DNA from: Sugiyamaella lignohabitans
Taxonomy: Eukaryota > Ascomycota > Dipodascomycetes > Dipodascales > Trichomonascaceae
Length of the DNA stretch: 64,000 bases
Direction of reading: 5' to 3'
Assembly: GCF_001640025.1 (NCBI RefSeq)
Contig: NC_031673.1
Coordinates: forward strand, 372,001-436,000
Shown here: positions 985 through 59,108 of the stretch, in pieces
Numbering within the stretch: position 1 is the first letter of the stretch
Layout: every line of letters begins with the position of its first letter
The notes under the pieces: generated by a model
Databases searched by the model: none
Seen by the model: the letters and a program-made list of their open reading frames with translations, nothing else
Told to the model about the DNA's origin: nothing
Position numbers and translations under genes: made by a program

Positions 985-1971
985 ATGGTCGCTTCTAAGT
1001 TTATCATCTCTGTTTTCCTTGCTCTTGGCGCTGCCAATGCTGCTGCTTCTGAAGGCACTATTGCTGCTCGTCAATTCGCTCTTTTGGACGGTGTTCAAAG
1101 TGGTGTCACCAACTACCGTCAAACTGTCGATACTCTTATCAGACAGCTTGAGTCTGGTAATGGTCATGCAGCTGCTGACTCCATTGCTGCTGCTATCACT
1201 GGTCTCGATTCGCAAATCGATAATGCCATTGGAACTGTATCTGATGCTTTGGCTCCTTTCACTCTTGGCGTTTCCAAGGCTATTGGCAATGTCTTGCTTG
1301 GACCTTTCGTCCAATCCGTCACCAACGGTGCTGAGGTTGTTCTTTCCAACATCATCGGTGGTGCCGTCGATGGTATCTCTGCTCCTATTGTTGCCAGCTT
1401 GACTGGAAATATCAACAACTTGGTTCAACAGGGTCAACACTACAACATTGACACCTCGAAGTTGGCTGATCTCAACTCTCAGCTTCAAGAGCACCTTCCT
1501 CAAATGCAGCAAAGAAGCCTTGTCACTCGTCAAAACGCTTTGCTTGATGGTGTTGAGAGCGGTGTTACTAACTACCGTCAAACTGTCGACACTCTTACCA
1601 GACAGCTTGAATCTGGTAATGGTCACGCAGCTGCTGACTCCATTGCTGCTGCTATCACTGGTCTCGATTCGCAAATCGATAATGCCATTGGAACTGTATC
1701 TGATGCTTTGGCTCCTTTCACTCTTGGCGTTTCCAAGGCTATTGGCAATGTCTTGCTTGGACCATTTGTTCAATCAGTCACCAACGGTGCTGAGGTTCTC
1801 CTCTCCAACCTTGTTGGTGGTGCCATTGATGGTGTCTCTGCTCCCATCGTCGCCAGCTTGACTGGTAACATCAACAACTTGGTCCAGCAGGGTCAACATT
1901 ACAATATCGACACCTCCAAGCTCGCCAACCTCAACACCGAGCTCCAAAACCACTTGCCTGCTATGAACTGA
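985..1971 (+). CDS. Secreted two-repeat protein of unknown function
   Basis: A 328-residue protein with an N-terminal hydrophobic signal peptide (about residues 1-22, ending near ANAAAS), so export through the secretory pathway is predicted. The mature part is two tandem copies of a roughly 150-residue, Cys-free, Ala/Ser/Leu-rich helical module. Each module begins near (R)QxALLDGV and ends with LQxHLP. The DNA period is 459 bp. Positions 1158-1304 and 1617-1763 differ at a single base, indicating recent duplication or gene conversion. The helical, Ala-rich, Cys-free character loosely resembles fungal HsbA-type cell-wall proteins, but I do not recognise the family. No GPI signal or C-terminal membrane segment is visible. 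The ATG at 985 is in an AAAA context and follows a TATA box. A decayed GHE follows the stop codon. Confidence 0.85.
   Translation: MVASKFIISVFLALGAANAAASEGTIAARQFALLDGVQSGVTNYRQTVDTLIRQLESGNGHAAADSIAAAITGLDSQIDNAIGTVSDALAPFTLGVSKAIGNVLLGPFVQSVTNGAEVVLSNIIGGAVDGISAPIVASLTGNINNLVQQGQHYNIDTSKLADLNSQLQEHLPQMQQRSLVTRQNALLDGVESGVTNYRQTVDTLTRQLESGNGHAAADSIAAAITGLDSQIDNAIGTVSDALAPFTLGVSKAIGNVLLGPFVQSVTNGAEVLLSNLVGGAIDGVSAPIVASLTGNINNLVQQGQHYNIDTSKLANLNTELQNHLPAMN
1158..1763 (+). repeat. 459-bp intragenic tandem duplication (best-conserved segment)
   Basis: Bases 1158-1304 recur at 1617-1763 with one mismatch (CATGC versus CACGC). The repeat is in frame and encodes the two protein modules. The outer ends of the modules are more diverged than this core. 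Confidence 0.9.
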
Positions 1972-2863
1972 ACTGTCTGGCTGATTAGCGACTTCTTATA
2001 TCTCAAATACTACAATACAGTACTATCATTTTAGTTGACTTCTTGCCTCTGGCGGCTGGGGCGCTGCTACTGCCACATACCCCGTTACTCCCGCGAAGCG
2101 GGAGTTGCTTGGTCATTAGACACATAATGAACAATTTTTCTCTAAAAAATAGAAAATAGAACGGCCTATGGAGAGGACTCTCCAAAGATCAAAGTCTTCC
2201 TTTTTTCCTAGCAAAACCATAAACCACTTCACCTAATCTACTAGTATCTTAGAAAAACCACCTGGAAACAATTAATCAAAGACATTTCAACCGAATTGTA
2301 ACAAAAGCTAGATCAAACAACTCCTGAAGAATGCAGATCAACGCAGGACATGCTGCATAATCGACGCAGGGTCCAAACTCCATGCGACTACTAATTTCGC
2401 ATATCGATTTAATAAAATAGCAAGCTGGCTCTTCCAATCTTCCTAAGATATCGTCTAAAATAATCTACTGGTATTTTTAATGCTGACAGTTGGCTCCTCG
2501 TAACTACTATCAAATGCACCCTAACCCAGATGAAATCTCGGACTATATATAAGCGGTCGATTTTGAGTTGCATTGAATTTGAGAAATGAAGTTCGAAACC
2601 GGAACATAGACTGCAATTGATAACAGCCATCGCGGTATCTGTGGATTATTTCCAAGAGTTTTGTGGTTTCAAGTGGTTTCCCGTGGATTTAAAAGAAACG
2701 CTGTCATTGTATAAAGTCCGCTTCAGAATAACAAGAACAGATTGCATTGTGTGAGTTTTTGAAGTTGTGACTTCTTGAATCAGTGAATTGGTGAATCAGT
2801 CTTGTGATATTTTCCCGTAAACCTGGCAATTGAATTTCTGGAGGAACTGATTTTTCAGAAAAA
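1972..2863. promoter_or_regulatory. Intergenic region and TAF12 promoter
   Basis: Contains the decayed GHE at 2045-2104. The rest is AT-rich with no convincing gene. No clear TATA box close to the TAF12 start is seen. Confidence 0.4.
2045..2104 (+). repeat. Decayed GHE left half, 73 nt past the stop
   Basis: GCCTCTGGCGGC is followed by a disrupted H1 and then CTCCCGC-GAA-GCGGGAG at 2088-2104. Relative to the usual CTCCTGC/GCAGGAG stem, both strands of one base pair have changed (T-A to C-G), so pairing is kept. Confidence 0.7.
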
Positions 2864-3837
2864 ATGAACAACGGGAATAATCGCGCTGGCGCGAGTGGAG
2901 GTGGCGGAATGCCTAATATTCCAAACCAATCCCCTGCAAATCAGGCTCAGGCTGTGAGAGAACGGTTGGTCAATTTACAACCTCAGCAGCTGAATGCTCT
3001 TATTCAGCAGTATCAACAAGCAATGCAAGGTGTGATCCAAGCCGGACCGCAGTCGCAAGAGGGCCAAGAACACTTTTTACGCGCTCAGAGGATCAAACAA
3101 GTGTTACAACAGTATCAGGGTCAGATGCAGGCTCAAGCTCAGCAGCGTGGTCAAAGACCTCCTGTAGCCAACCAAGCTCAAACAGCAGCTCACGCCCAAG
3201 CACAAGCTATGAATGCTCGTGCTCAACAACAAGCTATGAATGCTGCTGCTGCTAATGGAGCCATTCCTCAGAACCAACAGGCCATGGCCCAGCTACAACA
3301 ACAACAACTTCTCCTTCAACAACAACAACAACAACAACAACAACAGCAGCAGCAACAACAGCAACAACAGCAGCAGCAACAGCAGCAACAACAACAGCAG
3401 CAGCAGCAGCAGCAACAACAACAGGCAGCGGTAGCAGCAGCGGCAGCAGCGAATCCAAATGCTAACCATGCTAGGTTGGCTTCACAACAACAGCAACAAC
3501 AACAGCAACAACAACAGCAACAACAACAACAGCAACAGCAGCAACAACAACAGCAACAGCGTCAACGACAGTTTCAAAGTATGACCCCTCAACAACAGTT
3601 TGCATACCGAACTAGTCAATTAGAGCAATTTAGAAACACACAGAGAACTCTTCAAGAGCAGCTTGACCGGTTAGAACGGGCTTTACGAGAGCAGCCTAAT
3701 CTTGATGAAGAAATGAAGGCCAAAATTCGTCAACAAGAACAGTCACTTCGTGACCGAAAAGACAGTTACAAGAGTCTGGAATTGCAAGTAATGCAACAGA
3801 TTCGGGTCGCTGCTGGACAACAACAGCTCCAACAGCA

Positions 3838-3871
<34 letters not shown>

Positions 3872-4864: not shown

Positions 4865-4912
4865 CTCAACTGTAATACAATCCCTATTCAACTTCACTGC
4901 TGGGAACCTTGT

Positions 4913-4972
4913 GCCTCCGTCGGCTGGGGCTCTGCCCCAGACCCCGTGACTCCTCTCGCTCCGCTCCAGTCG
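4913..4972 (+). repeat. GHE left half (type B), 48 nt past TAF12 stop
   Basis: Tip GCCTCCGTCGGC, H1 with loop TCT, then a type B inner hairpin. It lies in the same sense as TAF12 and directly precedes a full copy. Confidence 0.85.
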
Positions 4973-4996
4973 TTTTTACGTCGACGGGTTGCTGCT

Positions 4997-5135
4997 GCCT
5001 CCGGCGGCTGGGGCTACGCCCCAGACCCCGTGGCTCCTCTCGCTCCGCTCGAGTCGTTTTCGTTGACAGTCCCAGCAAAATCTCCTGCGAAGCAGGAGCT
5101 ACGGGGTCTGGGGCAGAGCCCCAGCCGCCGGAGGC
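4997..5135. repeat. GHE full copy (B-A') between TAF12 and MMtag gene
   Basis: Left H1 has loop TAC with an intact stem. The inner hairpins are B on the left and A' on the right. It ends 66 nt from the stop of the convergent MMtag gene. Confidence 0.9.
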
Positions 5136-5201
5136 AGCGTCTCACGAACACATATGAAAATTAAATAAATAAATAAATAGGACTGGATCTCAGTGAGCGA
5201 C

Positions 5202-5861: not shown

Positions 5862-5943
5862 CTTCACCAGCATGAAACTTTCCAACCCGTGAACCTCGCG
5901 CACGGCTGCATTTATACTCGCAGATCGCTCAGGGGGGCCTGGT

Positions 5944-6094
5944 GCCTCCGGCGGCTGGGGCTCCGCCCCAGACCCTGGTTGCTCCTGCTTCGCAGGAGTT
6001 TTTCCCCCTGGCGTTGCTGGGGACCGTTTTGCCCGACTCGAGCGCAGCGAGAGGAGCAACCAGGGTCTGGGGCGGAGCCCCAGCCGCCGGAGGC
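5944..6094. repeat. GHE full copy (A-B') between SPF27 and MMtag gene
   Basis: Complete element with a 36-bp spacer. It lies 227 nt past the SPF27 stop and about 80 nt upstream of the MMtag start. No CTAAC or acceptor flanks it on the minus strand, so it does not look intronic. Confidence 0.9.
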
Positions 6095-6235
6095 AGGCCC
6101 CATCCCCCCTCGAAAATAAATAGAAAATAAACAGAAAATAAATAAATAAGCAGCCAATTGGCACAAAATATGGTGTCGGTTCGAGTGAACCTGTTTTAGA
6201 GGCGGTAGCCAGTGCTGAGAGCGGGGATGTTGTAT

Positions 6236-6321: not shown

Positions 6322-7152
6322 TTATTCACGGCGGAGGTGTTTGATTTCGCGTTCGAGTTTGAGGTTGGCGACATTGACGTCGACGAGGCCTTTGAGGGTA
6401 TCTTTCCAGCGGGTCTCGAGGTATCTGAGGGTGGGCTCGATTTCGAGCTGTTTACGTTTTCGTTCGTTGTTGATGGATTCGATAAGTTGTTTGTGGTTCT
6501 GAAGACTCTGTTCGTATGAAGTGAGTGTTTTCTCGAGCTGGTCGTTGCCAATGAGCCACTGGTTCTTGCCGAACTCGCTCAATAGCGACAGGTTCTCCTG
6601 CCGGATATGCGAATGGGCCAATGCTATATAAACTTCCGGCACCTTCAATTCGCCGGTTTCGGGGTCCTGAAGGTCTGTATACTTGCGAACATCCACCCCA
6701 CCCGCCATCTTCGTCTGCTCACCCGACTCTAACTTCCCAATCTCCTGCTGTAACCCGCCAGTCAAAAAACTCCTCGTCACAGGCAACTGTTCCTCCACCA
6801 GCGGATGCAACCCATTCTTCACTCGATTCCTGGCCTGCTCGTCCGCAGCGGCCTTCTGAATGGCGGCCCTCGCCGTCTCTAACGACCCCTCGTCCGCGGT
6901 CTCAATATCTGCAATTCCGTTAGTTTCTCATTCTTTACGGGGTGGGGGGTCTGCCTCCGGCGGCTGGGGCTCCGCCCCAGACCCTGGTTGCTCCTCTCGC
7001 TTCGCTCGAGTCGTTTCGTCGACGGTGCCAGCCAATCTCCTGCGAAGCAGGAGCAACCAGGGTCTGGGGCGGAGCCCCAGCCGCCGGAGGCACGTGTCCT
7101 CCGCCAGGGAAAACGTACAGGGAAGTGAGTCGAATGGAGACTGTGCCAGCAT
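6322..7152 (-). CDS. Pre-mRNA splicing factor SPF27/BCAS2 (Cwf7), NTC complex
   Basis: Exons are 7152-7119 and 6908-6322, giving 206 residues. Joining them creates DSLPYIETAD, the conserved family start (DSLPY-I/V-D). The body (HPLVEEQLP, LLSEFGKNQWLIGNDQLE, then a C-terminal coiled coil ending in LEREIKHLR) matches BCAS2/SPF27. This is the NineTeen-complex (Prp19) subunit that corresponds to Snt309 in S. cerevisiae. It acts in the nucleus in spliceosome activation. The intron (6909-7118) has a GTACGT donor, an ACTAAC branch and a CAG acceptor, and carries a full GHE. The start ATG at 7152 leaves an 11-residue first exon. The splice model rests on the reconstructed DSLPYIE motif and is strong. 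Confidence 0.9.
6909..7118 (-). other. SPF27 intron with GHE
   Basis: 210 nt. Donor GTACGT, branch ACTAAC, acceptor TTGCAG. The GHE occupies 139 nt; the rest is 27 nt on the donor side and 44 nt on the acceptor side. Confidence 0.9.
6953..7091. repeat. GHE full copy in SPF27 intron
   Basis: B-A' on the plus strand, A-B' in the sense of the gene. All hairpin stems are perfect. Confidence 0.95.
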
Positions 7153-8492: not shown

Positions 8493-8559
8493 ACTAATCA
8501 CCCACCCGGCCCGCTGCATTCGATATATGAGTACATGAAATAATTCTGACGGACAGACT

Positions 8560-8699
8560 GCCTCCGGCGGCTGGGGCTCCGCCCCAGACCCTGGTTGCTC
8601 CTCTCGCTTCGCTCGAGTCGTTGCGTCGAGGGACCCGGGACAAACTCCTGCGAAGCAGGAGCAACCAGGGTCTGGGGCGGAGCCCCAGCCGCCGGAGGC
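8560..8699. repeat. GHE full copy between convergent SNF7 and SED5
   Basis: B-A'. It lies 67 nt past the SNF7 stop and 54 nt past the SED5 stop, nearly symmetric between the two 3' ends. Confidence 0.95.
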
Positions 8700-8753
8700 A
8701 CGAGGGGACCGACAAGTGTTAGAGGAATGCTATTAGTGAGAGAGTGAGGGAGT

Positions 8754-10045
8754 CTACGAGACGAGGACCCAGATGAAGAAGAAGAACTGGTAACAGCGGT
8801 TAGTAGACGTGCCGACTCGAGCGCAGCGAGAGGAGCCACGGGGTCAGGGGCAGAGCCCCAGCCGCCGGAGGCAGTAGCCCCCGTATAACTTACGATGATG
8901 ATGCCGAACATTTTGACCATGAGCCAGCGGTTCGACGAGATTCGCGAGTAATATTTCAGCAGTTCACGCTGTGCTCCGGATACGTTGAGGGCGATGTCTT
9001 CGGTGTTGGCGTCGATTCGTTGCACGGTTTCGCGCTGTTCGGCCACCATTGTCGCCAGTTGTGAGAAGATGCCGCCCAGTTCTTGAATAGTCGACTCAAT
9101 AGCTTCAACAGCCGAACTTCGTTGACTCAAATACGAATCCTGCTGCTCTTCTAATAACGCCATGGTCTGTTCTTGTTGTGGTAAGACCAGGAAATCGTCT
9201 TGTCCCGACCCGGGTTTATCGTGATCCGGTAACAGAGATTGTGCTGTAGAAGACGACAACGGTCGGCCATAGGGGTTTTCTCCATACGACTCATCACCAC
9301 CAGCACCACCAGTAGCAGCAGATCCGGCAGGTGAACTGTTTCCTCGTCGATTGGCTGCTGCCGCGTATAATGGCGATTCACTGGATGTATGATCACGTAC
9401 GGACGAGGATGCTGACGAAATGAACTGTTCAGTACGCGAGCGAGTGGCCTGAGTGTTCTTAGTTCGTGTTTCAAGCACTTCTGTAAACCCCGTAGTCACA
9501 TCTGTCAGTTTTCCTTGTAAAAGAACTACCACGTTTCTAGAATGTTCATTTAATTGAGTTTCGGATTTATTAGTGCCCCAAGCAGACGCTGCTTTGCCTC
9601 CTCCTTGCGTCTTAACAAACGCCTGTAACGACGCTATACTGTCGTTGATTTTCGATAATTTCTGTTTGATTACAAATGACAGCTCACCAATCTCGACAGG
9701 TCGGTCGTCAAATAACGTCTTGCGTTTAGCCAGCAACGCCAATCGTTGTAACATGGCCGTTGTTTCACTGATTTCTTGTGCGATTCCTGACGCTCGCAAC
9801 GCGAACTGGCTCTTAGGACTTTTATTTTCTAATCCCGTTCCTGATCCGCTACTGGCCCCTGGCCCTCCAAACGCGGATTCTGGTCCGTTTATGATTCCAC
9901 TGCCACCGTAACTACCGGTCTGGCCTGACGACGAACTCCCGGGTCGACCTACAACCGTGCCATTAATTTTGGCTATCGAAGTCACACACGCCCGGAACTC
10001 CTGAGTCCGGTCCTGCACCGACGGCAACAAAACCGCGCTCGCCAT
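8754..10045 (-). CDS. SED5: Golgi Qa-SNARE syntaxin SED5
   Basis: Exons are 10045-8894 and 8786-8754, giving 394 residues. The N-terminal VQDRTQEFRACV resembles the short Sed5 peptide that binds the SM protein Sly1. A Habc-like region follows. The SNARE helix (IQELGGIFSQLATMVAEQRETVQRI) has the Qa zero-layer Gln in FSQLA. The second exon completes the C-terminal anchor as FGIII-FFFFIWVLVS, like the yeast Sed5 tail. The protein should be a tail-anchored cis-Golgi t-SNARE for ER-Golgi and intra-Golgi fusion. Without splicing, the frame stays open through the half-GHE for about 130 more codons and replaces the membrane anchor. The last coding exon is only 33 nt. Confidence 0.95.
8787..8893 (-). 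other. SED5 intron with half GHE
   Basis: 107 nt. Donor GTAAGT, branch TACTAAC, acceptor TACCAG. It contains one 60-nt half-element and splits the codons of the membrane anchor from the rest of the protein. Confidence 0.92.
8813..8872. repeat. GHE right half (B') in SED5 intron
   Basis: A left half in gene sense. H1 in the right half reads GGGGC-AGA-GCCCC with one outer mismatch (GTCAGGGG). Confidence 0.9.
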
Positions 10046-12994: not shown

Positions 12995-14456
12995 CTACTC
13001 ATCGGCCTCTCGCTCATAAAACTCCTTCACAATACTAATAAACTCCTGGGGTTTCTCGGAAATCACTAAACTGTTAGAACTGGGGGTCAGGGACCTGCCT
13101 CCGGCGGCTGGGGCTCCGCCCCAGACCCTGGTTGCTCCTGCTTCGCAGGAGATTGGCCTGGGACTGTGGCAAAACGACTCGAGCGCAGCGAGAGGAGCTA
13201 CCAGGGTCTGGGGCGGAGCCCCAGCCGCCGGAGGCACAGCGGAAGTAGTACGTACACCAGTGGCCAGCGTCTACATCGCGGATGACGAATTTCGGGAAGA
13301 ACTCGCCGATGGCGGGGAAGGCCTCGTCGGCCACGTAAGTCGAGTATTTGCCGCGGACGAAGAGGGTGGGTTTGGTGAAGCGGGTTTGCGATGGGTGGAA
13401 CGGGAAGTCGCCCATGTTGTTGAGGGCTTTGCCGAGGATGTCGAGGGGAATGCGGAATTTCAGGTGGTTGGAGTCGTCACGTTTGAGGTTGGCGAGGAGG
13501 AAATGTTGTACGGGAACCGACTTTTCGTACTGAGCCATGATAGCGTATGCTTCTCGTTGATGGGTGATGGGTGATTGGGCAATTCGTTCCATTCCCTGGA
13601 CGTATCTGTGAAATGAGGAGGATAACCTGGTATCAACTGGAGCATTATCCACGGAGATCAGAGAAGAAACCAGTTGAGGGTTTCTCAGAGCTACAGCCAT
13701 TGCGGTCTTGGCACCCCTGGAACATGAGTTAGTTTCATGAGAGTTTGGTCAGTCTGAGTGAGTTGTCAGAGGAAACTTACATAGAGTGGCCAATTAAACC
13801 AACAGGACCGAGTTTGTGTTTTTGAATGAAAGATTCGACATCAGCAGCCATTGAAGGGTAGTCATGGCGCTTGATGTGAGGACTGTCTCCATGATTACGC
13901 AAGTCCTTGACAGCTTAGTTAGAAATCAACTCATCTTTAGCTCTTAAAAATGGGCTCCTGAAACTTAATTGGAACAACGACTTACCAGACAATAAACAGT
14001 TTTCTTGAGATCACGGGCAAAGACCCTGTAGCGCATGTTAGTATCAGTCTGAGCCTGGCAATAGAGACGAAGGATTGAATCCACTAAAAGAGTCACAAAT
14101 CAAGATGCTGTTTAACACCCCCCATCCCGACTCGAGCGAAGCGAGAGGAGCCACGGGGTCTGGGGCAGAGCCCCAGCCGCCGGAGGCATCACACCGACCC
14201 AAGAAACGTACTTGCTGACGGTCCGATTATTGACTTTAGATCCGAAGAGGCCATGCAAAAATACAATTGGTTCGCCGACAGGAGTCACGTCCTTTGGAGG
14301 ATCGAATTTGTCGAATGCCAGGTCCACAGTTTCAATGTCTTTAGAAAGTGGATCCTCGTAATAAGACCGGGAGAGCACTCTTGCGGTGATGCGAGACCCA
14401 GCAGCAGCCGGTCGGGTGAACAGACCAGGAGCTCTCCGAAGACCCAGGAAAACCAT
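12995..14456 (-). CDS. Mitochondrial alpha/beta hydrolase, IMO32/EAT1 family
   Basis: Five exons: 14456-14212, 14025-13986, 13905-13781, 13716-13256, 13065-12995, giving 313 residues. The Arg/Ser-rich start (residues 1-33) looks like a mitochondrial presequence. FLHGLFGSK (oxyanion-hole region) is at about 66-74, and DLRNHGDSPH at about 96-105. The nucleophile elbow GHSMG is at 134-138 (Ser136), and the catalytic His is in AGHW (about 289). VDNAPVDT and YVQGMERI match S. cerevisiae Imo32 (YGR031W). The family includes Eat1 ethanol acetyltransferase, so an ester-forming or hydrolysing activity is possible; the substrate is unknown. Intron 3 splits the Met codon of GHSMG and intron 4 falls just after HW. 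Introns 1 and 4 carry GHEs; introns 2 and 3 are minimal. All joins restore family motifs. Confidence 0.92.
13066..13255 (-). other. Hydrolase intron 4 with GHE
   Basis: 190 nt. Donor GTACGT, branch CTAAC, acceptor TTTAG only 7 nt later. The join gives AGHWLISEKP. The alternative CAG directly after CTAAC breaks the motif. Confidence 0.85.
13097..13235. repeat. GHE full copy in hydrolase intron 4
   Basis: A-B' on the plus strand, B-A' in gene sense. Complete and well conserved. Confidence 0.95.
13717..13780 (-). other. Hydrolase intron 3 (no GHE)
   Basis: 64 nt. GTAAGT donor, ACTAAC branch, TTCCAG acceptor. It shows the basal intron size of this genome. Confidence 0.9.
13906..13985 (-). other. 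Hydrolase intron 2 (no GHE)
   Basis: 80 nt. GTAAGT donor, CTAAC branch, TCAAG acceptor. The join gives VYCL-DLRNHGD. Confidence 0.88.
14026..14211 (-). other. Hydrolase intron 1 with half GHE
   Basis: 186 nt. GTACGT donor, TACTAAC branch, CTACAG acceptor. The half-element lies near the donor. The join gives NNRTVSK-VFARDLKKTVYCL. Confidence 0.9.
14128..14187. repeat. GHE right half (B') in hydrolase intron 1
   Basis: A left half in gene sense. Right-half H1 has loop AGA with an intact stem. Confidence 0.9.
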
Positions 14457-14914: not shown

Positions 14915-15689
14915 ATGGCGACACCCGAGCAGCTGAACAAGACCGAGCGGGGTAAGTACTCGGGACATGCCTCCGGCGGCTGGGGCTCCGCCCCAGACCC
15001 TGGTTGCTCCTGCTTCGCAGGAGATTTTTCGCGTGGGGACCGTGTCGCAACGACTCGAGCGAAGCGAGAGGAGCAACCCGGGTCTGGGGCGGAGCCCCAG
15101 CCGCCGGAGGCAGACCCCTGTTCCCGGAGAATCACCACTAACCAGAGTCACAGTGAACCGTACGAGGGCCATTCTGGGGGAGATAGCGGGCGATGGCAGT
15201 TTTGAGGCCCATGCTAAGGGCGTTTCGTGGCCCGAGTTCGTGGATTTGGTAGTGGAGCTGTTGGATGCCAATGTTTCAGGGTTGTACGACCGGCCTGAAA
15301 AGAGTTATATCGATCCGTTGACGGGTCAAGAGTCGAGTGAGTCTGAAATGACGGACCAGGTTAAGAGTTTGTTGAGAACCGAGTTTGCGGCAGGTCCGCC
15401 GTTCACCGTGCAACGACTGGCCGAGCTGCTCGGTTCACCTCTGGATTTCTACCCGGCTCCGTTCGTGTATAAATACCTGACAGCGTTGAAACGGGTTCTG
15501 TCAGTCGCATCGCTGAGCACGGACTACCCCGCCGTCGATTTACAAGCCGAGATAGCCCAGTCGAAAACCGACACCAGCAGCGCCAACTACGGCGAACCGG
15601 GCGTGGTCATGACCGAGATCCCCTGGGTCCTCGACACGGGTCTCCCTGAAAACACCCCCACTGCAGCCCCCGCTGACGACCCTTTTTAA
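14915..15689 (+). CDS. PSY4: Protein phosphatase 4 regulatory subunit 2 (PPP4R2/PSY4)
   Basis: Exons 14915-14951 and 15154-15689, giving 190 residues. The body (SWPEFVDLVVELLD, PPFTVQRLAELL, FVYKYLTALKRVLSVAS) matches the PPP4R2 domain of the nuclear PP4 complex, which dephosphorylates gamma-H2A in checkpoint recovery. The acidic C-terminal tail of some homologues is short here. The intron (GTAAGT, CACTAAC, TCACAG) follows codon 12. The join TER-VNRTRAIL keeps the frame. An earlier CAG after CTAAC is out of frame. It converges on RSM24 with a shared GHE. Confidence 0.88.
14952..15153 (+). other. PSY4 intron with GHE
   Basis: 202 nt: 17 nt from donor to GHE, then 42 nt from GHE to acceptor. 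Confidence 0.88.
14969..15111. repeat. GHE full copy in PSY4 intron
   Basis: A-B' in gene sense. All stems perfect, spacer 27 bp. Confidence 0.95.
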
Positions 15690-15742
15690 TTCCGGGGGAG
15701 TTCTATTTATATTGATTGCATCTTTCTTTCTCTGGGGGACAT

Positions 15743-15880
15743 GCCTCCGGCGGCTGGGGCTCCGCCCCAGACCCTGGTTGCTCCTGCTTCGCAGGAGATG
15801 GAAGGGTCCGTAGGGGAAACGACTCGAGCGCAGCGAGAGGAGCAGCCAGGGTCTGGGGCGGAGCCCCAGCCGCCGGAGGC
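15743..15880. repeat. GHE full copy between convergent PSY4 and RSM24
   Basis: A-B'. It is 53 nt past the PSY4 stop and 55 nt past the RSM24 stop, almost exactly central. Confidence 0.95.
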
Positions 15881-15935
15881 ACAGTTACAGGTCATGATTT
15901 TTATTCGGATTATGTACAGAGAACAAGCAGATGCT

Positions 15936-17147
15936 CTAGAGAGGCAGTCTGTGGATGACGGAGACGATATCGTCTTTGGGTTTAGGAGCGTCTTGGGGTC
16001 TGTTCCATGCCTCGGGGAACTCGACTCGTGGTCTCACGGGCTTGTTACGACGTCGCTTGGCTACCATGTGCCGGGTCTCAAGAGGCACATCTGCAAATGT
16101 ATCCGACTCGTCTCTAGCAGCCTCGAGCAGACTCTTAAGAATATCACCGAGGAATCTCTTATTTTGAGCCTGTTGAGGGAACTTAGACGAACTGATTGTG
16201 ACCACATCAGTATCACTATTGTATCGAGCACCGGCCAAAAGACACAGTTTATGTTTCTGGGCGGCAGTCAGCCCCAGTTCCGACGGTGAAAACTGCACCG
16301 TCACCTTCTTTCCGGCGGGATGGTCCTCGCCCAAAAAGGTGTTGTATTTAAACGTTAACACGGACTCGTCCGACGGAGGTCTGTACGGAGACGCCAATTC
16401 TACACGGGTTAGTTTCATCCTCTATGGTGCGTGCCTCCGGCGGCTGGGGCTCCGCCCCAGACCCTGGCTGCTCCTGCTTCGCAGGAGATTTTGCTGGCAC
16501 CGTCGACGAAACGACTCGAGCGAAGCGAGAGGAGCAACCAAGGTCTGGGGCGGAGCCCCAGCCGCCGAAGGCAGTCCCCCCAGCAGGTACTTACTTGACA
16601 GTTGGGGGAGGTCGTAGGCCGCTATACGGTTGTACTCTCTTTGGACACGGTGCTCGCGCATTTGCAGGTGTCCGAGACTGGGCAGGTCATCGTATTCAAA
16701 GGGTCGATGTGCTTCGGTGATGGGTGGAACTGAGAATGTCTCGATATCGGCCCGGTCGACTTGCATTCGTTCTTCGGGCGAAAGTCTTTCATAAGGCACT
16801 GATCCTACTTGTACGGCATCATAAACTTCTCGGAGCTTGGTTTCAGAAATTCCCAGCTGTTTTCCGGCCTGGAGAAGTGGTTTCAGCTCCTCTTCCGACT
16901 TCTGATACCCCCGTTTCGACTCCATTTTCTTGAACCCTTCTTCCAGAATCTCTTTCGCAGATTTGCCTTCGTACTCAGAAGTTCCTTTTCCTGCCGAATC
17001 TCTCTTCACTGTCGACGACGACAGGTTTCTAAATGCCATTTTATTCGTGCCAACTCTGTTGCTGTTGTTGTTACTGATTCTCAGTCCAGTCTGAACTGCC
17101 GCCCGTAACGGGGCGCCAGCGCTGCGAACCACTCTAATTCCCGACAT
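15936..17147 (-). CDS. RSM24: Mitochondrial small-subunit ribosomal protein mS35 (RSM24)
   Basis: Exons 17147-16595 and 16399-15936, giving 338 residues. The N-terminus (MSGIRVVRSAGAPLRAAV) is a basic amphipathic presequence for the mitochondrial matrix. Residues after about 110 carry the MRP-S28/Rsm24 domain: FEYDDLPSLGHLQMREHRVQREYNRIAAYDLPQL, then LTFKYNTFLGEDHPAGKKV, QKHKLCLLAGARYN and VTISSSKFP. The intron (GTAAGT, ACTAAC, GTGTAG) falls at the join LPQLSSK-LASPYRPP. The ATG at 17147 (ACAATGTCG) is the first usable start. It diverges from RSM7, another mitoribosomal protein gene, across about 790 bp. The sharing is suggestive but may be chance. Confidence 0.92.
16400..16594 (-). other. 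RSM24 intron with GHE
   Basis: 195 nt. The donor-side flank begins GTAAGTACC and continues as TGCTGGGGGGACT up to the GHE tip, closely matching the flank in the SCH9 leader intron. Confidence 0.9.
16433..16572. repeat. GHE full copy in RSM24 intron
   Basis: A-B' on the plus strand. The outer tip has GCCGAAGGC in place of GCCGGAGGC. Confidence 0.95.
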
Positions 17148-18820: not shown

Positions 18821-18878
18821 CCCGCCCTCCTCCTGTAAATAATACTATCATCTACCTTGAACGCTCCGTGCCCTCGCT

Positions 18879-18933
18879 GCCTCCGGCGGCTGGGGCTCCG
18901 CCCCAGACCCTGGTTGCTCCTGCTTCGCAGGAG
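18879..18933 (+). repeat. GHE left half (A), 58 nt past RSM7 stop
   Basis: A perfect left half with no matching right half nearby, in the same sense as RSM7. Confidence 0.92.
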
Positions 18934-44608: not shown

Positions 44609-45022
44609 AGTCCCCACCCCCCAGAAACGGTCCGATTCGCGGCCGCCGGTGTCGGTCAGGGGAGTGTTCAAACGCGAATTGCGTCATCGGCTGCAGGGCG
44701 ACGCAAGCGACCCGTGCTTGATTGCTTGCGACGAAGTCCGTTTTTCGTTGAAAAAAACGTTCTTCGGAATCCAGGACTGAATCCACAAACCACCACCCAA
44801 AACCACCCTCACCCGCCAGCACCGTGCAGACTCCGCGGACTCGACTCCTGCTGCCGGTCCCAGGACACTCTTCCCCCACAACAGCCGGCTCCTCCTCACA
44901 CTCCTCTACGAACTTTTGTATTATATTTTCTGTAAATAAACTCAATTGCACGCCTGCCCAGTCTGACGTCACCGCGCATGGAATCCTGCACAGATCGCCA
45001 GGGTGGACAATCCCTGCGTCTG

Positions 45023-45158
45023 CCTCCGGCGGCTGGGGCTCCGCCCCAGACCCCGCTGCTCCTCTCGCTGCGCTCGAGTCGTTACGTGAGAGCGCCGCAG
45101 CAACTCCTGCGAAGCAGGAGCAACCAGGGTCTGGGGCGGAGCCCCAGCCGCCGGAGGC
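45023..45158. repeat. GHE full copy (B-A'), 14 nt past ALG1 stop
   Basis: The GHE nearest to a stop codon in the window, in the 3' UTR of ALG1 at the latest. Confidence 0.95.
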
Positions 45159-45172
45159 ACGAGGGGAGGCCC

Positions 45173-47374: not shown

Positions 47375-48163
47375 ATGGTAGGTGTGAGGCCATTGCAAGG
47401 CTGCTGGCCCGTTTGAGCTCGTATTCACAGGGTTTTGAGTCCCGTGACTGGTGAGATAACGGATCGGGACATGGGAGATAGGGGCTGTGTGATCAGACTT
47501 GAAACCGGTACTAACAAACCAAACAGGCTGACCAACTGACCGAACAACAAATCTCCGCGTTTAAAGAGGCATTTTCTCTGTTCGATAAGGACAACGATGG
47601 TACGTTCCCCTCGTGCCTCCGGCGGCTGGGGCTGCGCCCCAGACCCCGCTGCTCCTCTCGCTTCGCTCGAGTCGTTACCCCCGGAATCCCCGCCATCTCC
47701 TGCGAAGCAGGAGCAACCAGGGTCTGGGGCGGAGCCCCAGCCGCCGAAGGCAACACCCCACCCCCGAGAAAATCTAACACAGCCAGGCAAGATCACTACT
47801 AAGGAGCTCGGTACGGTCATGAGAAGTTTGGCATTGAACCCCTCGGAGAGCGAGTTATCGGATATGATCCACGAGGTCGATGTGGATAACGACGGCACTA
47901 TTGATTTCCCCGAGTTTCTGACCATGATGGCCCGGAAGATGAAGGACACCGACTCGGAGGAGGAGATTCGCGAGGCGTTTAAAGTGTTTGACCGTGACGG
48001 CAACGGGTTTATTTCAGCTGCCGAATTGCGCCACGTCATGACCACTATTGGCGAGCGTTTGACTGAAGAAGAGGTCGACGAAATGATCAGAGAAGCTGAT
48101 GCTAACGGCGATGGCCACATCGACTATAACGAGTTCGTCAACCTGCTGCAAAACACCAAATAG
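47375..48163 (+). CDS. CMD1: Calmodulin
   Basis: Exons 47375-47377 (ATG only), 47527-47599 and 47787-48163, giving 150 residues. The joined start [37 protein letters not shown] is textbook calmodulin. The four EF loops are [36 protein letters not shown] and [12 protein letters not shown]. All have acidic residues at positions 1, 3 or 5 and 12, so four functional Ca2+ sites are expected, unlike the degenerate fourth loop of S. cerevisiae. The intron after the ATG is a fungal calmodulin hallmark. Intron 2 (GTACGT, TCTAAC, GCCAG) splits loop I between DG and K. CTG encodes conserved Leu in the N-terminal segment. Confidence 0.97.
47378..47526 (+). other. CMD1 intron 1 (no GHE)
   Basis: 149 nt. 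Donor GTAGGT directly after the ATG, branch TACTAAC, acceptor AAACAG. Confidence 0.92.
47600..47786 (+). other. CMD1 intron 2 with GHE
   Basis: 187 nt. Only 14 nt separate donor GTACGT from the GHE tip; 35 nt from GHE to acceptor. Confidence 0.95.
47614..47751. repeat. GHE full copy (B-A') in CMD1 intron 2
   Basis: Left H1 loop TGC with an intact stem. Right tip GCCGAAGGC, the same variant as in the RSM24 intron. Confidence 0.95.
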
Positions 48164-48212
48164 AGATAGCTGGAATTTTCATGAGGTTGTTTTTCCGCGT
48201 GGATGGGGACCT

Positions 48213-48349
48213 GCCTCCGGCGGCTGGGGCTCCGCCCCAGACCCTGGTTGCTCCTGCTTCGCAGGAGATGGCGGGGATCCCGGGGGTCACGACTCGAGCG
48301 AAACGAGAGGAGCAGTGGGGTCTGGGGCGCAGCCCCAGCCGCCGGAGGC
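48213..48349. repeat. GHE full copy (A-B'), 49 nt past CMD1 stop
   Basis: Right-half H1 loop GCA. B' has GAAACGAG (one change). Confidence 0.93.
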
Positions 48350-48597
48350 ACGAGAGCCCCTGTGTGGGTTCAGTGGTGCAATTTGGGATGCGGGGATGTG
48401 CATTGGACCCTGCATCAGGGACCAAGCACCGGTGGTTCCTGCGTCTGCACCTGAATTGGCAATTCGGGCTGGGTTTCCTCAGAAACACCACAAATTGCCA
48501 CTCTAGGACTCCTGTTACCGGTTTGTGGCTGACTGGGATGTGGATAGCAGGTAAAGGGGCTGACTGAGGTGTCTTCTCATGCCGACGGGGTGGGTCT

Positions 48598-52056: not shown

Positions 52057-55000
52057 ATGTCGAGCTCGGGAATCGGGTCGTTTCTCAAAGAGAGCAGAGA
52101 CAAGCTCAATGACGTGTCTGCCAAGGGCAAACAGAAATACGACTCGGGCGACTGGAAAAAAGCCCCTAAATTCTCACTTCCCAGCTCGCGAATTGGTCGC
52201 CAGGGTACGTAAACGGGGTTTCGGAGTGGGGGTCAGATGCCTCCGGCAGCTGGGGCTCCGCCCCAGACCCTGGTTGCTCCTGCTTCGCAGGAGGTTTTTG
52301 TTCTAGGGTCAACGACGGAACGACTCGAGCGAAGCGAGAGGAGCAACCAGGGTCTGGGGCGGAGCCCCAGCCGCCGGAGGCAATCTGACACCCGTCGTAG
52401 AAGTGACTAACAGGACATCAGAAGAGAATGAGAGGGAGAGTATTCAGGCCCGTCCGCTGTCGGCTCTGACGGATCCCAGTTTGTTTCCCCCGCCTCCAAA
52501 ACACAGGGGGTACGAGAATGGAGCTCCAGTTCAGCCAGCTCAGCCTGTGGCTCCAGTTCAGCCAGTTCAGGCTGCTCATCCCGGCTATGGCCAGCAGCAG
52601 CAGCCTCAGACGGGATATGCTCCTTCGCCAGCGGCAGGGTATGGCCAGTTGCCGCCTCAAGCTCCTGCTCAGGTGCCTGGACAGGCTCCAGGAGTGGCTC
52701 CTGGTCAGACGTATCAAGCGTACGGACAGAATCAAGGTCAATTGCCTCCTCAGCAACAACAACAGCAACCACAAGTTCAGGGATATAATCCGAATCCAGC
52801 AGCTGGTTATGGCCAAGTTGCGAGTCCGGGTCAACCTGGGTCTTACCAGCAACAGCAGCAACTGTCTGGATACGGTCAGCCAGGTCAACTGGGTCAGCCA
52901 GGAGTGATTCCGGCTCCTTCTCCTCCAGTTCAACAGCCACCTCAACAGTACGGTCAACCACAGTCATTTCAACAGCCACCTCAACAGCAGTATGGTCAAC
53001 AACCAGCTCAACAGCAGTATGGCCAACAACCAGCTCAGCAGCAGTATGGCCAACAACCAGCCCAACAGCAGTATGGCCAACAACCAGCTCAACAGCAGCC
53101 GGCTCCACAGTATGGCCAGGAGTATGGTCAGCAGCAGCCAGCTCAACCGTATGCCCAGCAGTACGGCCAGCAAGCTCCACAACAGATTGTTCCACAGGCT
53201 GCTCCACAGCCAACTCCGGTTGAACAGCCTCCAAACTACCCTTCACAGAATGCTGCACCATCTCCTGCTCCAGCCTTGTCTCCAGCTCCTCCTGCGAGAC
53301 CCCCTTTGCCAGATCCAACCTCGTTTCCAAAACCTCCTGTGTTTGGCAACCCTGCTTCGGCTGCTATAAACAGTCCCAATTCCACCACTCGTGCTCCTGC
53401 TACTCCTGGAGTCGGGGCTCCTGAGGACGCACAATCGAAACCTGTAAAAGCGCCATTGCCTGATCCAGCTTCCTTTGCTCCTCCTCCGGTATTTGGTCGT
53501 CCTGGATCTGCTGCTTCTTCAGCTGTTGCTTCCCCTGGTGTAAACAGATCGAGTCCTTCTAAACCAGGTGCTGGAATGCCTCCTCCTCCACCTCCAAGAC
53601 AGAATCTGCCTGATCCTACCAGCTTTGCTCCTCCTCCTATTTACGGAAACCCTGCCAGTGCCAGTTACAAGGCTCCGGCACCTCAAGCAGCAGCTGCTAC
53701 GATTACTGCTACTCAACAGCCACAACATCAACAACAACAACAACTACCACCTCCTGTATCTCGACAGACTCCTACTCCTCCAGCATCGCGCGTAAGTCCT
53801 ACTCCACCTGCTACAAGAGCCACTCCTCCAGGATCGGCTACTCACAGTACGGGTCCAAGACAGGCTCCTCCTAAACCAGCTTCTCTCAAAGTTCAGCCCA
53901 CCCCTCCTCCTAAACCATCTGCTTTTTCAACTTCTGGAAATACCAACACAGTTCCTCACCCTCAACCAGCTCGAACATACCCTTCTCAACAGCAGCTACC
54001 CCAACCACTCCAGAGTCAATTCCAGGGTCAACCTCAAGGTCAACCTCCTGCGTATGCTTTAACTGATAGTTTGAACAACCTTTCAGTTAATGACAACCAA
54101 AACGAAGTTCAGGCTGTACCCAGTCCATCTGGCGATTCACAATCATCTGCTCCTCAACCGGCTGTTGCATTTGCTCAACCAGGAATTCCAAATTTTGCTG
54201 CTGAAATCGCTGCTAGAAAAACTCGTAACTCAGTATCTCATTCGTCTACCGCTTCAGCGTCTCCACCTCCCATTTCTCCAGCTTCAACTGGCGCCAGCAT
54301 AAACAAGAAAGCTCCTCCACCACCACCCAAGAAAAAACCCAGTCTGAGTACCGGGTCTTCTTTTTCTGCTGCTTCCACACCTGCTCCTGCTGCTCCGGGT
54401 ACTGGCTATGCTCATTCATCAGTCGCAAGCCCGCCTGTTATTGCTCCTAAACCAATTGTACCATCGGCACCAGCTCGTAACCATCCTCACACCGTTGGTG
54501 TCAACAGTTCACATGCTCCTTCCTTGCCACCACCAATCAACCATGCTACTCGACCATCTGTTGAAACCATTGCTAGAAGTGGTTCATTCTCTGACTCTCA
54601 AGTGCAACCTGAACCAAAAGAACCGAAACGATTTGATTTCCAGCTGGCAACTGCCTGGTTCGCAGTTCCAATGGGACAACCTCTTCACTTTCCTCCCGAC
54701 CTTTCTGGTACTGAATACACTTACTCCACATCATCCTCCGGCTCCACTAGGACATTGAAAATAGCACTTCGAATCACTGAAGATCTGTCAGTTGTTAGAT
54801 TTACCATGACCTGGGATGAAAGTGATCCTGTTCGCACCTGTCGAGTCACCCGAACCGACTCGGCAGTTCCACGACTTCTCACTGGACCCGAACTGGTCTA
54901 TTCACATTCTCAGTACGGCGAATTAGTAGCTTCATGGGCTGAGTCGAAGATGGGTCAACAGGTGGGTAACGGCGAGTGCTGGACTCTTGCCCAACAAGCC

Positions 55001-55372: not shown

Positions 55373-55411
55373 CCGCTATCTACGAATATTTTTGACCTGT
55401 TCCTGGGACCT

Positions 55412-55593
55412 GCCTCCGGCGGCTGGGGCTCCGCCCCAGACCCCGCAGCTCCTCTCGCTTCGCTCGAGTCGGGCGTGGGGTCCCCCTCGCTGGGATTATA
55501 GAGGTTCTCCAGTTTCGAGGGAGGCCCCACGCCCGACTCGAGCGATGCGAGAGGAGCAGCGGGGTCTGGGGCGGAGCCCCAGCCGCCGGAGGC
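55412..55593. repeat. Long GHE (B-B'), 39 nt past AIM3-like stop
   Basis: 182 bp. The inner arms extend with GGGCGTGGGG / CCCCACGCCC, as in the 10.3-kb copy. Interior about 40 bp. Confidence 0.9.
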
Positions 55594-56315
55594 AGGCCCC
55601 CGTCCCTCTGGCGGGGGTAAGAATAGTGGGCAAGGGGGATTTAAGGTGTCAACGGTCGTGCATGGCATGGCATGATTGACAGACTGCAGGGTTGCCGGAT
55701 TGCGCTGGCCGCCTGTGGATGGTGCATAGACGCATCTCGTATAGCTTTTGGATGCCGGTGGTGTGCGTGTCGAGGAGGGAGACAATGGAGCCCCACCGAG
55801 TCATTGATGGCAGCTTATTAAGAAACGCATGAAAATGAGTCGGTCGGCTTGCCGGGTCGTTCGTGCCCACTGTTTTTTGGGTCCGGAAGGGGGGCAGGTC
55901 GGAGAATTGGGCTTCCGTGTTGGGATTAAATGGGGACGTTGAAGAGGGGTTGAGTGGTTTGAGGGGCGAGTATGAGAAGTAGTTTTTCTGATGAAGTTTG
56001 AGAAGAACGTCTAAGATCCAAATTTAAAGTGCGATAGAGTCCCTGCCAGCCGGCACCCGTTGGCAGGGCTTATGCGGTTTCACCTGCCCCTCAACGGTAA
56101 ATTTCTATGCCGCAAATCTTGATTGCGGCAAGGGCTCCGGAGAGACTCTTCTACCGAGGCGCCGCCTCCCCTCCTTCCTAATGGAGCAGGATCGACCTTG
56201 GCTTGGATCTGGGCTGGCTTGAATATATAAGTACTTGTATCTCTGAAGAGGTTCAACGTTGTAATTTTTTTTTAATTTCAATTACCATTGAATTATTACA
56301 GTATAAAAAGCCAGA
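55594..56315. promoter_or_regulatory. Promoter region of the YML131W-like gene
   Basis: Two inverted repeats lie here: CCTGCCA/TGGCAGG (about 56043-56068) and GCCGCAA/TTGCGGC (56109-56129). A TATATAAG at 56224-56231 is about 85 nt before the start codon. Zinc-cluster factor sites (CGG-containing) are possible. Confidence 0.5.
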
Positions 56316-57392: not shown

Positions 57393-57427
57393 TAAACCGT
57401 GTCCACTGCCTTCTGGGGGCGGGTTCT

Positions 57428-57657
57428 GCCTCCGGCGGCTGGGGCTCCGCCCCAGACCCCGTGGCTCCTCTCGCTCCGCTCGAGTCGTTACTTCGGAGCG
57501 CCAGCCAACTCCTGCGGAGCAAGTGCCTCCGGCGGCTGGGGCTTTTCCAGACCCCGTGGCTCCTTTCACTCCGCTAGAGTCATTACGTCGGGATGCCAGC
57601 CAACTCCTGCGAAGCAGGAGCAACCAGGTCTGGGGCGGAGCCCCAGCCGCCGGAGGC
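57428..57657. repeat. Compound GHE with duplicated left part
   Basis: A left B half plus spacer (57428-57523) is repeated as a diverged 96-bp copy (57524-57619), then one right half ends the element. It lies 35 nt past the reductase stop and 26 nt past the HRT3-like stop. Confidence 0.9.
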
Positions 57658-57683
57658 AGTTATGGGTGGGAGATAAAGTGGTT

Positions 57684-59108
57684 TTATGTGGTAAGAGCGG
57701 CCGGATGGCGTTTGAGGAAGAAGAAGGCTTTGTCGTGGCGAAGGGAAAACTCGCCGTAGGTGTCGGAGAGGTTGTTGATGCTCCAGAATTTGACCCATTT
57801 GAGTTTGTTGTGTCGGTTGTGGCCGCTGGACCGGATTTGCAGTTGCATGTAGAATGTGTACCGTTCGACCGAGCCCTCGGACTCGATGAGGACGGTGCCA
57901 TCTAGTCCGTTGATTTTCCAGGTCCCGCTCATGATTCCTTTAGGACGAGAAAGGACTGTGCCGTCTTCTTTGGTGTAGATGACGGCGGGCTGTTTTTTCG
58001 ACGGTCGGGTAGGTCCTGTGCCATGGGCAGTGCCAGTGATGTTTCGAGTGAATACAGGGACAACGTCTGATGGTTCGGAGGTGGTGAGAAGATTTATACA
58101 GGTGCCGTCTTCGTAGAATTTACAGTATCGGTAGTATGTGACCATGTGGATGGGTGCGTTCCATGTATCTCCTACACCAGGACGTAGATAGTTACAGGTG
58201 CTGATATAGACTCCGTCAAACCTGATCCGGGGTCTTTCGAGATACATTCTACGAAACGAGTTGCCCCAATACTTTTTGACAGCTTCCAGTTCGTTTCCAT
58301 TGCATAGCTCTTCCACCGCGTCCTCTGTATAATGTTGTTTACTGTATGCCTGTTGACAGAGGGCCATCCAGATGCTTTTGGTGGTATATCCAATATGTGC
58401 AAATGATTTACACGAGTATGTACACTTTGTAAACGACGACAGATCGTCTAATGCTAGGTATCGGAATATTTCAGATAGAATCTCTACCGGGACTTGAAGG
58501 ATAGGACATGGCAGTTCTTCGTCTTCTGCAGTCAGACTAAGCTCTGCAAGATTTTTACTCAGCTCCGACACTGATCCCGTTCCATCTCCAAGTAGAACTT
58601 TTTGGCTTTTCTTGGTACTAGTCTTTGTCGAACTTTCGGCTCCGCCACTAGATTTGGTGCTGGGTTTTTTGTGAGTTGGTTTGATAGAATAGTACTTTTC
58701 TCTGTACAGTTTGTCCACTCTCTCGTTGAGTCGAAATGCATCTCTATAATGACGAACAGCGTCTGACAACTTTCCAGTATGTTCACTGTCAACAGCCCGT
58801 TCAAAAGCCTCTAGAGCATCGAGATCTGTTCGTGATAAATCTTTATTGTAATAGACATGTTCCGGTCGTTCTGCCCGAAATGCACTATCTGGTGTGATTA
58901 CTCTTGTAGGAGACAGAGCTCTCTCAGTTGAAATGTCATCAGTTGTGTCTCGATTAATAGCTGCCTCTCCAGCGTTATTAGAAGCTGCTGTTCTTCCATT
59001 GGTAGCAGTAGATGAAGTAGCAGATGGTGCTGTTGAGTTCTGTCCGTCTGAATGTCGATGTTGAACTTCAGACCTCCAGGCCTGTCTAAATCTATCTAAT
59101 TCAGACAT
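57684..59108 (-). CDS. HRT3: F-box protein HRT3/FBXO9/Pof7 family
   Basis: A 474-residue putative SCF substrate adaptor. The N-terminus has a Ser/Thr/Asn-rich stretch, then a TPR-like helical hairpin (ALEAFERAVDSEHTGKLSDAVRHYRDAFRLNERVDKLYRE, about 85-130). The F-box is about 199-240 (PCPILQVPVEILSEIFRYLALDDLSSF). The conserved C-terminal domain has WNAPIHMVTYYRYCKFYEDG, the LLTTSEPSDVV segment, GIMSGTWKING and LKWVKFWSIN, as in FBXO9 and Hrt3. It binds Skp1 through the F-box; substrates are unknown. ATG at 59108. Converges on the reductase gene. Confidence 0.9.
   Translation of the reverse strand: MSELDRFRQAWRSEVQHRHSDGQNSTAPSATSSTATNGRTAASNNAGEAAINRDTTDDISTERALSPTRVITPDSAFRAERPEHVYYNKDLSRTDLDALEAFERAVDSEHTGKLSDAVRHYRDAFRLNERVDKLYREKYYSIKPTHKKPSTKSSGGAESSTKTSTKKSQKVLLGDGTGSVSELSKNLAELSLTAEDEELPCPILQVPVEILSEIFRYLALDDLSSFTKCTYSCKSFAHIGYTTKSIWMALCQQAYSKQHYTEDAVEELCNGNELEAVKKYWGNSFRRMYLERPRIRFDGVYISTCNYLRPGVGDTWNAPIHMVTYYRYCKFYEDGTCINLLTTSEPSDVVPVFTRNITGTAHGTGPTRPSKKQPAVIYTKEDGTVLSRPKGIMSGTWKINGLDGTVLIESEGSVERYTFYMQLQIRSSGHNRHNKLKWVKFWSINNLSDTYGEFSLRHDKAFFFLKRHPAALTT

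Follow-up and report, generated by a model that had tools for sequence, protein, structure and literature searches.

GHE copies in the window and their structure

The 64-kb stretch of yeast DNA analysed here (the window) contains numerous copies of a short inverted repeat, termed GHE, which an earlier note on this sequence had described as sitting just past the stop codons of most genes. This observation is right and more general than was stated: GHE is an abundant nuclear hairpin family with a dual preference for introns and for the 3' ends of genes. The genome comprises 15,932,016 bases in four contigs and was sampled as the window plus 22 further 10-kb stretches (220 kb; 20 from contig C1 at 300-kb spacing and one each from C2 and C3, a C1-weighted choice), giving 284 kb in total; the 22 stretches without the window are referred to as held-out. 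Loci of <9 kb (L001-L008) and predicted genes with <300 coding bases, save those cut by a stretch end, were omitted from the counts, and a sister subfamily was excluded from the main GHE counts. Genes were predicted using a two-strand gene finder written for this analysis, which allows introns and treats GHE sequence as neutral in scoring. A total of 101 genes (each with 300 or more coding bases, or cut off by the end of a stretch) were predicted in the 284 kb, of which 36 contain introns. Elements of the window are listed below in window coordinates; a strand is assigned to the calmodulin intron only.

2044..2106, GHE half, 72 nt past the stop at 1971+
4912..4974, GHE half, 47 nt past the stop at 4864+
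4996..5136, full GHE, 65 nt past the minus-strand gene stop at 5202
5943..6095, full GHE, 226 nt past the minus-strand gene stop at 6322
6952..7092, full GHE, in intron 6909-7118 of a BCAS2-like minus-strand gene; the BCAS2 match (7-206) runs across the junction (aa 11)
8559..8700, full GHE, common to the convergent stops of an SNF7-like gene (66 nt) and SED5 (53 nt)
8811..8873, GHE half, in SED5 intron 8787-8893; the SNARE match (339-391) runs across the junction (aa 384)
13096..13236, full GHE, in intron 13066-13255 of an alpha/beta hydrolase minus-strand gene
14126..14188, GHE half, in predicted intron 13914-14194 of the alpha/beta hydrolase gene; weak donor, may be mis-modelled
14968..15112, full GHE, in intron 14952-15147 of the plus-strand gene ending at 15689 (PSY4 in the earlier note)
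15742..15881, full GHE, common to the convergent stops at 15689+ (52 nt) and 15936- (54 nt)
16432..16573, full GHE, in intron 16400-16594 of the RSM24 (MRP-S28) minus-strand gene
18878..18940, GHE half, 57 nt past the stop at 18820+
21663..21725, GHE half, in long intron 20589-21766, 41 nt before the 3' splice site
22770..22832, GHE half, 61 nt past the stop at 22708+
30451..30500, sister-subfamily arm, ~53 nt past the stop at 30397+
30950..31000, sister-subfamily arm, ~64 nt past the minus-strand gene stop at 31065
32430..32572, full GHE, 108 nt past the minus-strand gene stop at 32681
36744..37602, three distant GHEs (36744-36896, 37152-37214, 37468-37602), with no predicted gene within 2 kb; these illustrate the far class
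40310..40448, full GHE, 178 nt past the minus-strand gene stop at 40627
43028..43166, full GHE, in a likely 5' untranslated region (5'UTR) intron of minus-strand gene 40627-42981 (GTAAGT ... CTAACAG ... CAG before ATG)
45021..45159, full GHE, 13 nt past the minus-strand gene stop at 45173
47600..47786, plus strand, calmodulin intron, mostly GHE (47614-47752), with 14 nt on the donor side and 34 nt on the branch/acceptor side
48212..48350, full GHE, 48 nt past the calmodulin stop at 48163+
52238..52382, full GHE, in intron 52205-52421 of plus-strand gene 52057-55372
55411..55594, full GHE of B/B type, 38 nt past the stop at 55372+
57427..57489, GHE half, 34 nt past the stop at 57392+
57524..57658, full GHE, 25 nt past the minus-strand gene stop at 57684

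Each GHE arm consists of TGCCTCCGGCGGCTGGGGCTCCGCCCCAGACCC, which is able to fold alone, followed inwards by a mini-hairpin of type A (CTCCTGCTTCGCAGGAG) or B (CTCTCGCTTCGCTCGAGTCG). A full GHE is a unit of ~140 bp with two facing (inverted), near-identical arms of 33-44 bp each around a poorly conserved spacer, and 35 of 47 full elements span 135-145 bp. The 284 kb contain 106 elements, comprising these 47 full elements (doublets) and 59 singlets (32 right and 27 left halves). The mini-hairpins of the doublets were paired as AB in 25, BA in 15, BB in four and AA in one, with two unclear. As 40 of 47 pair A with B, the doublet is one defined, oriented unit and not a product of chance neighbours. 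Alignment of 33 oriented copies showed conserved arms and a loose spacer, and doublet arms carried fewer mean mismatches to the consensus than singlets (0.96, n=94, versus 1.61, n=59; p 0.002). Terminal inverted repeats with arms of 30-85 nt and 89-100% complementarity were recorded (pairs I1-I23, among 25 listed of 46), and predicted RNA folds of GHE reached -105.8 and -138.2 kcal/mol. Genome-wide, 6,356 arm cores (3133 + 3223) were found at up to two mismatches, as compared to none for a reversed-pattern control. The sister subfamily carries GCCGGGCTCCGCCCGGACC. GHE density is patchy, with no copies in 7 of the 22 held-out stretches; across 23 stretches, it tracks the GC content of the masked surroundings and that of third codon positions (rho 0.66 and 0.62). 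At 51560-51920, a GHE plus flank (around GATGCATAT) is seemingly tandemly duplicated, and a diverged hairpin at L031:1784, with an TGCCTCCGGC box, another stem (CTCGGGC...GCCCGA) and a position ~80 nt past a predicted stop, is perhaps a relic.

Several further comparisons were negative. No Rfam family reached its gathering score within the window. Matching G-rich and C-rich tips, suspected from single copies, were dropped after a shuffled-pair test of 47 elements, in which flank complementarity within copies was not clearly above that of shuffled pairs (largest positive z 2.1 over 40 positions). No arm-arm co-variation was detected, arms being 94.6% alike within one element and 94.5% between elements; the 11-nt linker was slightly more alike within elements (p 0.028). 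In the open-licence literature, a scope outside which most subscription journals fall, neither the 28-nt GHE core nor a title describing the repeat was found, and the 11-mer GCCTCCGGCGG occurred only in papers with seemingly unrelated titles. A search for relatives through one GHE-overlapping open reading frame gave 12 candidates, none of which was scored.

Position of GHEs relative to stop codons and introns

In the window, 17 of the 21 complete stop codons have a GHE within 120 nt, in agreement with the earlier note. Fifteen were recovered by the main search, at distances of 13, 25, 34, 38, 47, 48, 52, 53, 54, 57, 61, 65, 66, 72 and 108 nt, and two (stops 30397+ and 31065-) through sister-subfamily arms, marked by TGCCTCCGGCRGCCGGGCTCCGCCCGGACC, at about 53 and 64 nt. 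Two cases given previously as 179 and 227 nt were remeasured as 178 and 226 nt, the exceptional pair at 12938/12995 was confirmed, and the convergent SNF7-like/SED5 (66/53 nt) and 15689+/15936- (52/54 nt) stops indeed share one GHE each. The PSY4 label is compatible with the PPP4R2 match, only sub-threshold, of the protein encoded at 14915-15689.

The positions of all 106 elements were compared to a null of 200 rounds in which elements were placed at random in the non-coding DNA of their own stretch. Thirty-five elements lay within 120 nt past a stop, as compared to 8.9 ± 2.6 (maximum 16) in the null, and this excess was present in both the window (13 of 47; null 3.2 ± 1.6) and the held-out stretches (22 of 59; null 5.2 ± 2.1). 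The 120 nt ahead of starts contained six elements (null 10.9 ± 3.1), and 44 were classed as far (null 79.0 ± 4.3). Counted per gene in held-out DNA, a GHE was found within 120 nt for 25 of the 65 stops but for only 3 of the 70 starts; for at least one of these 25 stops (L024:298), the GHE lies in the intron of a neighbour. Within the window, 22 of 47 elements lie outside introns and more than 120 nt from any stop or start.

Introns had been overlooked in the earlier note. Of the 47 window elements, nine are located in introns predicted within coding sequence and a tenth (43028-43166) in the likely 5'UTR intron. Over the 284 kb, a GHE is present in 21 of the 56 predicted introns, one of which belongs to the calmodulin gene, and these 21 of 106 elements exceed the null of 7.2 ± 2.5 (maximum 15); the held-out count was 12 versus 4.7 expected. 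The remaining 85 elements lie outside predicted coding introns, and among them likely GHE introns beyond the predicted coding sequence were noted at L016:5584 and L018:7639 in addition to that in the window. A flank test made without the gene finder, excluding nine elements within 400 nt of a stretch end, looked for a donor and a CTAAC branch site on opposite sides of the element, each at most 80 nt away and both on the same strand; this arrangement was found for 7 (plus) and 11 (minus) of 97 elements, as compared to 0 and 0 for control flanks 200-280 nt away.

GHE introns occur in 19 of the 36 intron-bearing genes, and nine of the 19 proteins were checked. The spliced calmodulin protein aligned without gaps to solved calmodulins over residues 1-146, and Pfam matches span the GHE-intron junctions of BCAS2, alpha/beta hydrolase, APS kinase and SNARE proteins, although the acceptor of the APS-kinase model is probably misplaced by a few residues. 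The CK2-beta, MRP-S28 and 2-oxoacid-dehydrogenase proteins provide a less direct test of the models because their first Pfam match starts just beyond the junction. GHEs are found within the genes for calmodulin and SED5 and, as judged from Pfam matches, within CK2-beta, APS-kinase and 2-oxoacid-dehydrogenase genes. Splitting of 36 of 101 predicted genes differs from the figure of only 5% that a review gives for the presumed species, Sugiyamaella lignohabitans (PMC5499181); annotation may have missed GHE-filled introns.

One explanation of the intronic copies is that GHEs insert into exons and create new introns, as introner-like elements do in other fungi. Apart from the element, 15 of the 21 GHE introns consist of only 43-72 nt, whereas 10 of 35 GHE-free introns are ≤72 nt (Fisher p 0.0025), and the inverted repeats and absent target duplications resemble the Hypoxylaceae (stw)introns (PMC8469720). 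Intron creation is nevertheless most unlikely. The repeat does not include the splice signals, which are found at varying distances from it (the donor 6-33 nt outside it in 16 of the 21 GHE introns and more remote in the remaining five), and the flanks are not common to the copies. Introns per gene were 0.59 in GHE-free stretches (13 in 22 genes) and 0.52 in GHE-rich stretches (32 in 62 genes), a small sample, with 11 introns in 17 genes in low-density stretches. GHE-less introns fell from 0.59 to 0.19 per gene, and 20 of the 32 introns in GHE-rich stretches hold a GHE. In this small sample, genes in GHE-dense stretches therefore have no more introns than others, and GHEs seem to fill existing introns and not to add new ones.

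Densities were calculated as elements per kb of element-free DNA. In all data, introns of ≤300 bp contain 3.69/kb (18 elements, 4.88 kb) and the first 120 nt past stops 3.87/kb (35 elements, 9.04 kb), falling to 0.69/kb at 121-300 nt past stops (6 elements, 8.65 kb). No gradient was observed away from starts, with 0.55/kb at 1-120 nt before them (6 elements, 10.91 kb), 0.59/kb at 121-300 nt (8 elements) and 0.46/kb in far intergenic DNA (30 elements, 65.8 kb), and 152.6 kb of predicted coding sequence contain no element. The held-out stretches gave 2.46/kb in introns of ≤300 bp, 3.05/kb (95% interval 1.91-4.62) at 1-120 nt and 0.59/kb at 121-300 nt past stops, 0.36/kb and 0.20/kb at the same distances before starts, 0.34/kb in far intergenic DNA and none in 123.6 kb of coding sequence. 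There are therefore two hot zones of similar density, both of transcribed non-coding DNA adjoining coding sequence, above a flat background. Base composition is not the explanation of these zones because the post-stop zone is among the least GC-rich (0.38, held-out), though GHE-rich regions are GC-rich overall.

Explanations for the two hot zones

The earlier note had offered two interpretations of the post-stop copies, an insertion preference and a role as bidirectional terminators or 3'-end structures. The former is supported, also outside the window; the latter, in which functional copies would be selected at gene ends, is unlikely, although the excess past stops fits it. Likewise, intergenic density is highest in convergent gaps (1.74/kb, 24 gaps), followed by tandem (0.72/kb, 34) and divergent gaps (0.60/kb, 19), and bacterial hairpins with an identical outer 17 nt lie directly past stops (see below). 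Yeast-type AT-rich 3' motifs occur between stop and GHE at 2.76 per 100 bp (40 segments) and are scarce after the element (0.10 per 100 bp in the first 75 nt and 0.92 in the next 75 nt; 13 tandem cases). This scarcity is partly due to DNA that is less AT-rich there (0.60 between stop and GHE, 0.49 in the first 75 nt beyond and 0.54 in the next 75 nt). In GHE-free genes, motif frequency begins at 1.97 per 100 bp, is down to 0.57 by 90-120 nt and returns to 1.09 at 160-200 nt. These profiles make it probable that GHEs begin at the poly(A) region or immediately beyond it.

Against a terminator stand the similar density of short introns, so that GHEs are not confined to gene ends and are about equally dense inside genes that must be read through, the 40 of 65 held-out stops without a GHE within 120 nt, and the held-out stretches lacking GHEs altogether. 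Conservation was also no better near stops, with mean mismatches of 1.14 (n=58) versus 1.40 (n=60) for distant copies (p 0.37) and 1.00 for introns (p 0.52). GHEs may still have a helper role at some convergent genes.

Alternatively, insertion could be random and placement a matter of selection only, with copies surviving where the mature mRNA loses them (in introns and past the poly(A) site) or where promoters are unharmed. The empty coding sequence, the few GHEs near starts and the end of the post-stop hot zone by ~120 nt would all follow, and this explanation is possible, if doubtful. Little loss would be expected in far intergenic DNA, yet this is as poor in GHEs as the 120 nt before starts, and the flat profile away from starts is not what plain selection against promoter damage would predict.

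A flat background with two similar hot zones favours a bias of insertion or copying towards transcribed DNA over survival alone. We consider it somewhat probable (roughly 55%) that GHE is a high-copy, non-autonomous, mobile hairpin family which settles preferentially in transcribed non-coding DNA beside coding sequence, namely in short introns, where it lies between the donor and the branch site, and in a zone of ~120 nt directly after stops, where 3'-end signals lie. For its spreading, we infer a mechanism in which GHE would move, with a preference arising mainly from insertion or copying tied to transcription, for example via nascent-RNA or R-loop DNA. Copies in coding sequence and 5'UTRs would be lost through selection, and any influence on 3'-end formation would be a by-product.

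A number of observations weigh against this account of a mobile, transcription-guided family. Introns of >300 bp have only background density (0.38/kb, 3 elements in 7.9 kb; 0.29/kb held-out), an outcome not expected under a plain rule of all transcribed DNA, although miscalls among the long introns are possible. The held-out density for short introns has a wide 95% interval (1.18-4.52), the gene models are predicted from sequence alone, and most far copies are left without explanation. No target-site duplication was found in the 30 nt on each side of 47 full elements (mean longest shared flank word 4.43, null 4.38), and no empty site, hence no movement, was observed. Searches of the yeast genome gave no match for Y1_Tnp (control positive in 5 of 14 genomes), MULE, Piwi (positive control, one archaeon) or hAT, for which the control was equally silent.

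No gene-strand bias was detected (7 versus 7 in introns and 2 versus 3 at tandem 3' ends, with few cases testable). The genome contains two DDE_1 genes, of which the one read is flanked by GHEs, as are many genes, and 13 reverse-transcriptase matches. Mobilisation by a reverse-transcribing element was rejected on finding no GHE arm in the 6 kb around one reverse-transcriptase locus read of the 13, and GHE as a substrate of RNA interference was dropped in view of the absent Piwi match. A 14-bp tandem repeat, AGGACTGTGTTACT, adjoins a reverse-transcriptase locus at L031:2576-2687. Elsewhere in the window, 985-1971 holds a 328-aa open reading frame whose halves look by eye like near-repeats of each other behind a signal-peptide-like start.

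With 6,356 strong hairpin arms in 16 Mb, and GHEs in 21 of 56 sampled introns and past 25 of 65 held-out stops, splicing and 3'-end formation in this yeast would have to cope with an exceptional amount of RNA structure. Two types of transcribed non-coding site have similar densities, which makes testable the old question of whether short mobile elements choose transcribed DNA or are spared there.

Bacterial look-alikes and known repeat families

Within the prokaryote collection, the exact 31-mer CCTCCGGCGGCTGGGGCTCCGCCCCAGACCC of the arm was matched in a single record, a Desulfovibrionaceae metagenome-assembled genome (the source of locus L033), where it lies just past a stop and is the only copy at up to three mismatches. 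Among 80 genomes of the same bacterial class, 36 carry the first 17 nt of this 31-mer, GCCTCCGGCGGCYGGGG, as a repeat, with up to 198 copies (reversed-pattern control 0-1), and 44 carry no copy. The post-stop hairpin in this class has the form GCCTCCGGCGGC(C/T)GGGG...CCCC(A/G)GACCC. In the Desulfovibrionaceae genome, four of seven exact 17-mer copies lie 1-24 nt past a qualifying stop; for 20 copies from three other genomes, 12 lie at 0-10 nt, six farther and two have no such stop. The 17 nt are constant in those 20 copies because these were selected by the 17-mer, and the hairpin interiors vary. Post-stop hairpins with the outer 17 nt of the GHE arm, often with a GACC tail, were seen at loci L033-L040 and L053-L072. 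Seventeen stretches of the viral collection fit the ends-plus-hairpin pattern, some GC-rich contigs (e.g. L076, L084, L086) carry facing inverted pairs like the yeast doublet, and plasmids (most often of Streptomyces) and phages matched parts of the arm only, with weak E-values. A link to REP transposases in bacteria was rejected, as Y1_Tnp was present in 5 of 10 genomes rich in the 17-mer versus 6 of 12 without it.

The likeness to GHE thus comprises an identical outer 17 nt, a G/C hairpin next to it and a GACC tail in most copies; the bacterial hairpins differ in their variable interior, and no A/B inner hairpins were seen in them. Convergence on a good hairpin is the more sober interpretation. 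It is very unlikely that the two have a real common origin, in which a cassette of convergent-terminator type would have entered the yeast nucleus, been amplified to thousands of copies and homed to introns and 3' ends via nascent transcripts; if true, GHE would be a eukaryotic counterpart of REPINs with transcription-guided insertion.

Miniature inverted-repeat transposable elements and foldback DNA elements are short, non-autonomous, bounded by terminal inverted repeats and located near genes. GHE resembles them in these traits but has no target duplication and no identified partner transposon. The GC clusters of yeast mitochondrial DNA (PMC5499181, PMC4478555) are also short GC-rich palindromes that invade yeast DNA, whereas the contigs bearing GHEs also carry spliced genes of the nucleus. 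Absence of target duplication and presence of copies in introns are shared with fungal introner-like elements and symmetrical (stw)introns (PMC8469720, PMC9860276), and those of Hypoxylaceae also share long inverted repeats and a stable RNA fold (PMC8469720). GHE differs from these elements (PMC8469720, PMC9860276) in having splice sites outside the repeat, an about equal density past stops and no sign of intron gain in the small sample of genes. The REPIN/REP doublets of bacteria (PMC3116915) are inverted doublets of palindromic arms with a loose spacer and many singlets, in which doublets are better conserved than singlets, and they lie outside coding sequence at high copy number. GHE differs from them in its eukaryotic nuclear location, longer arms, intronic copies and lack of a Y1 transposase match. 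GHE is best viewed as a miniature hairpin repeat whose anatomy is closest to that of REPINs.

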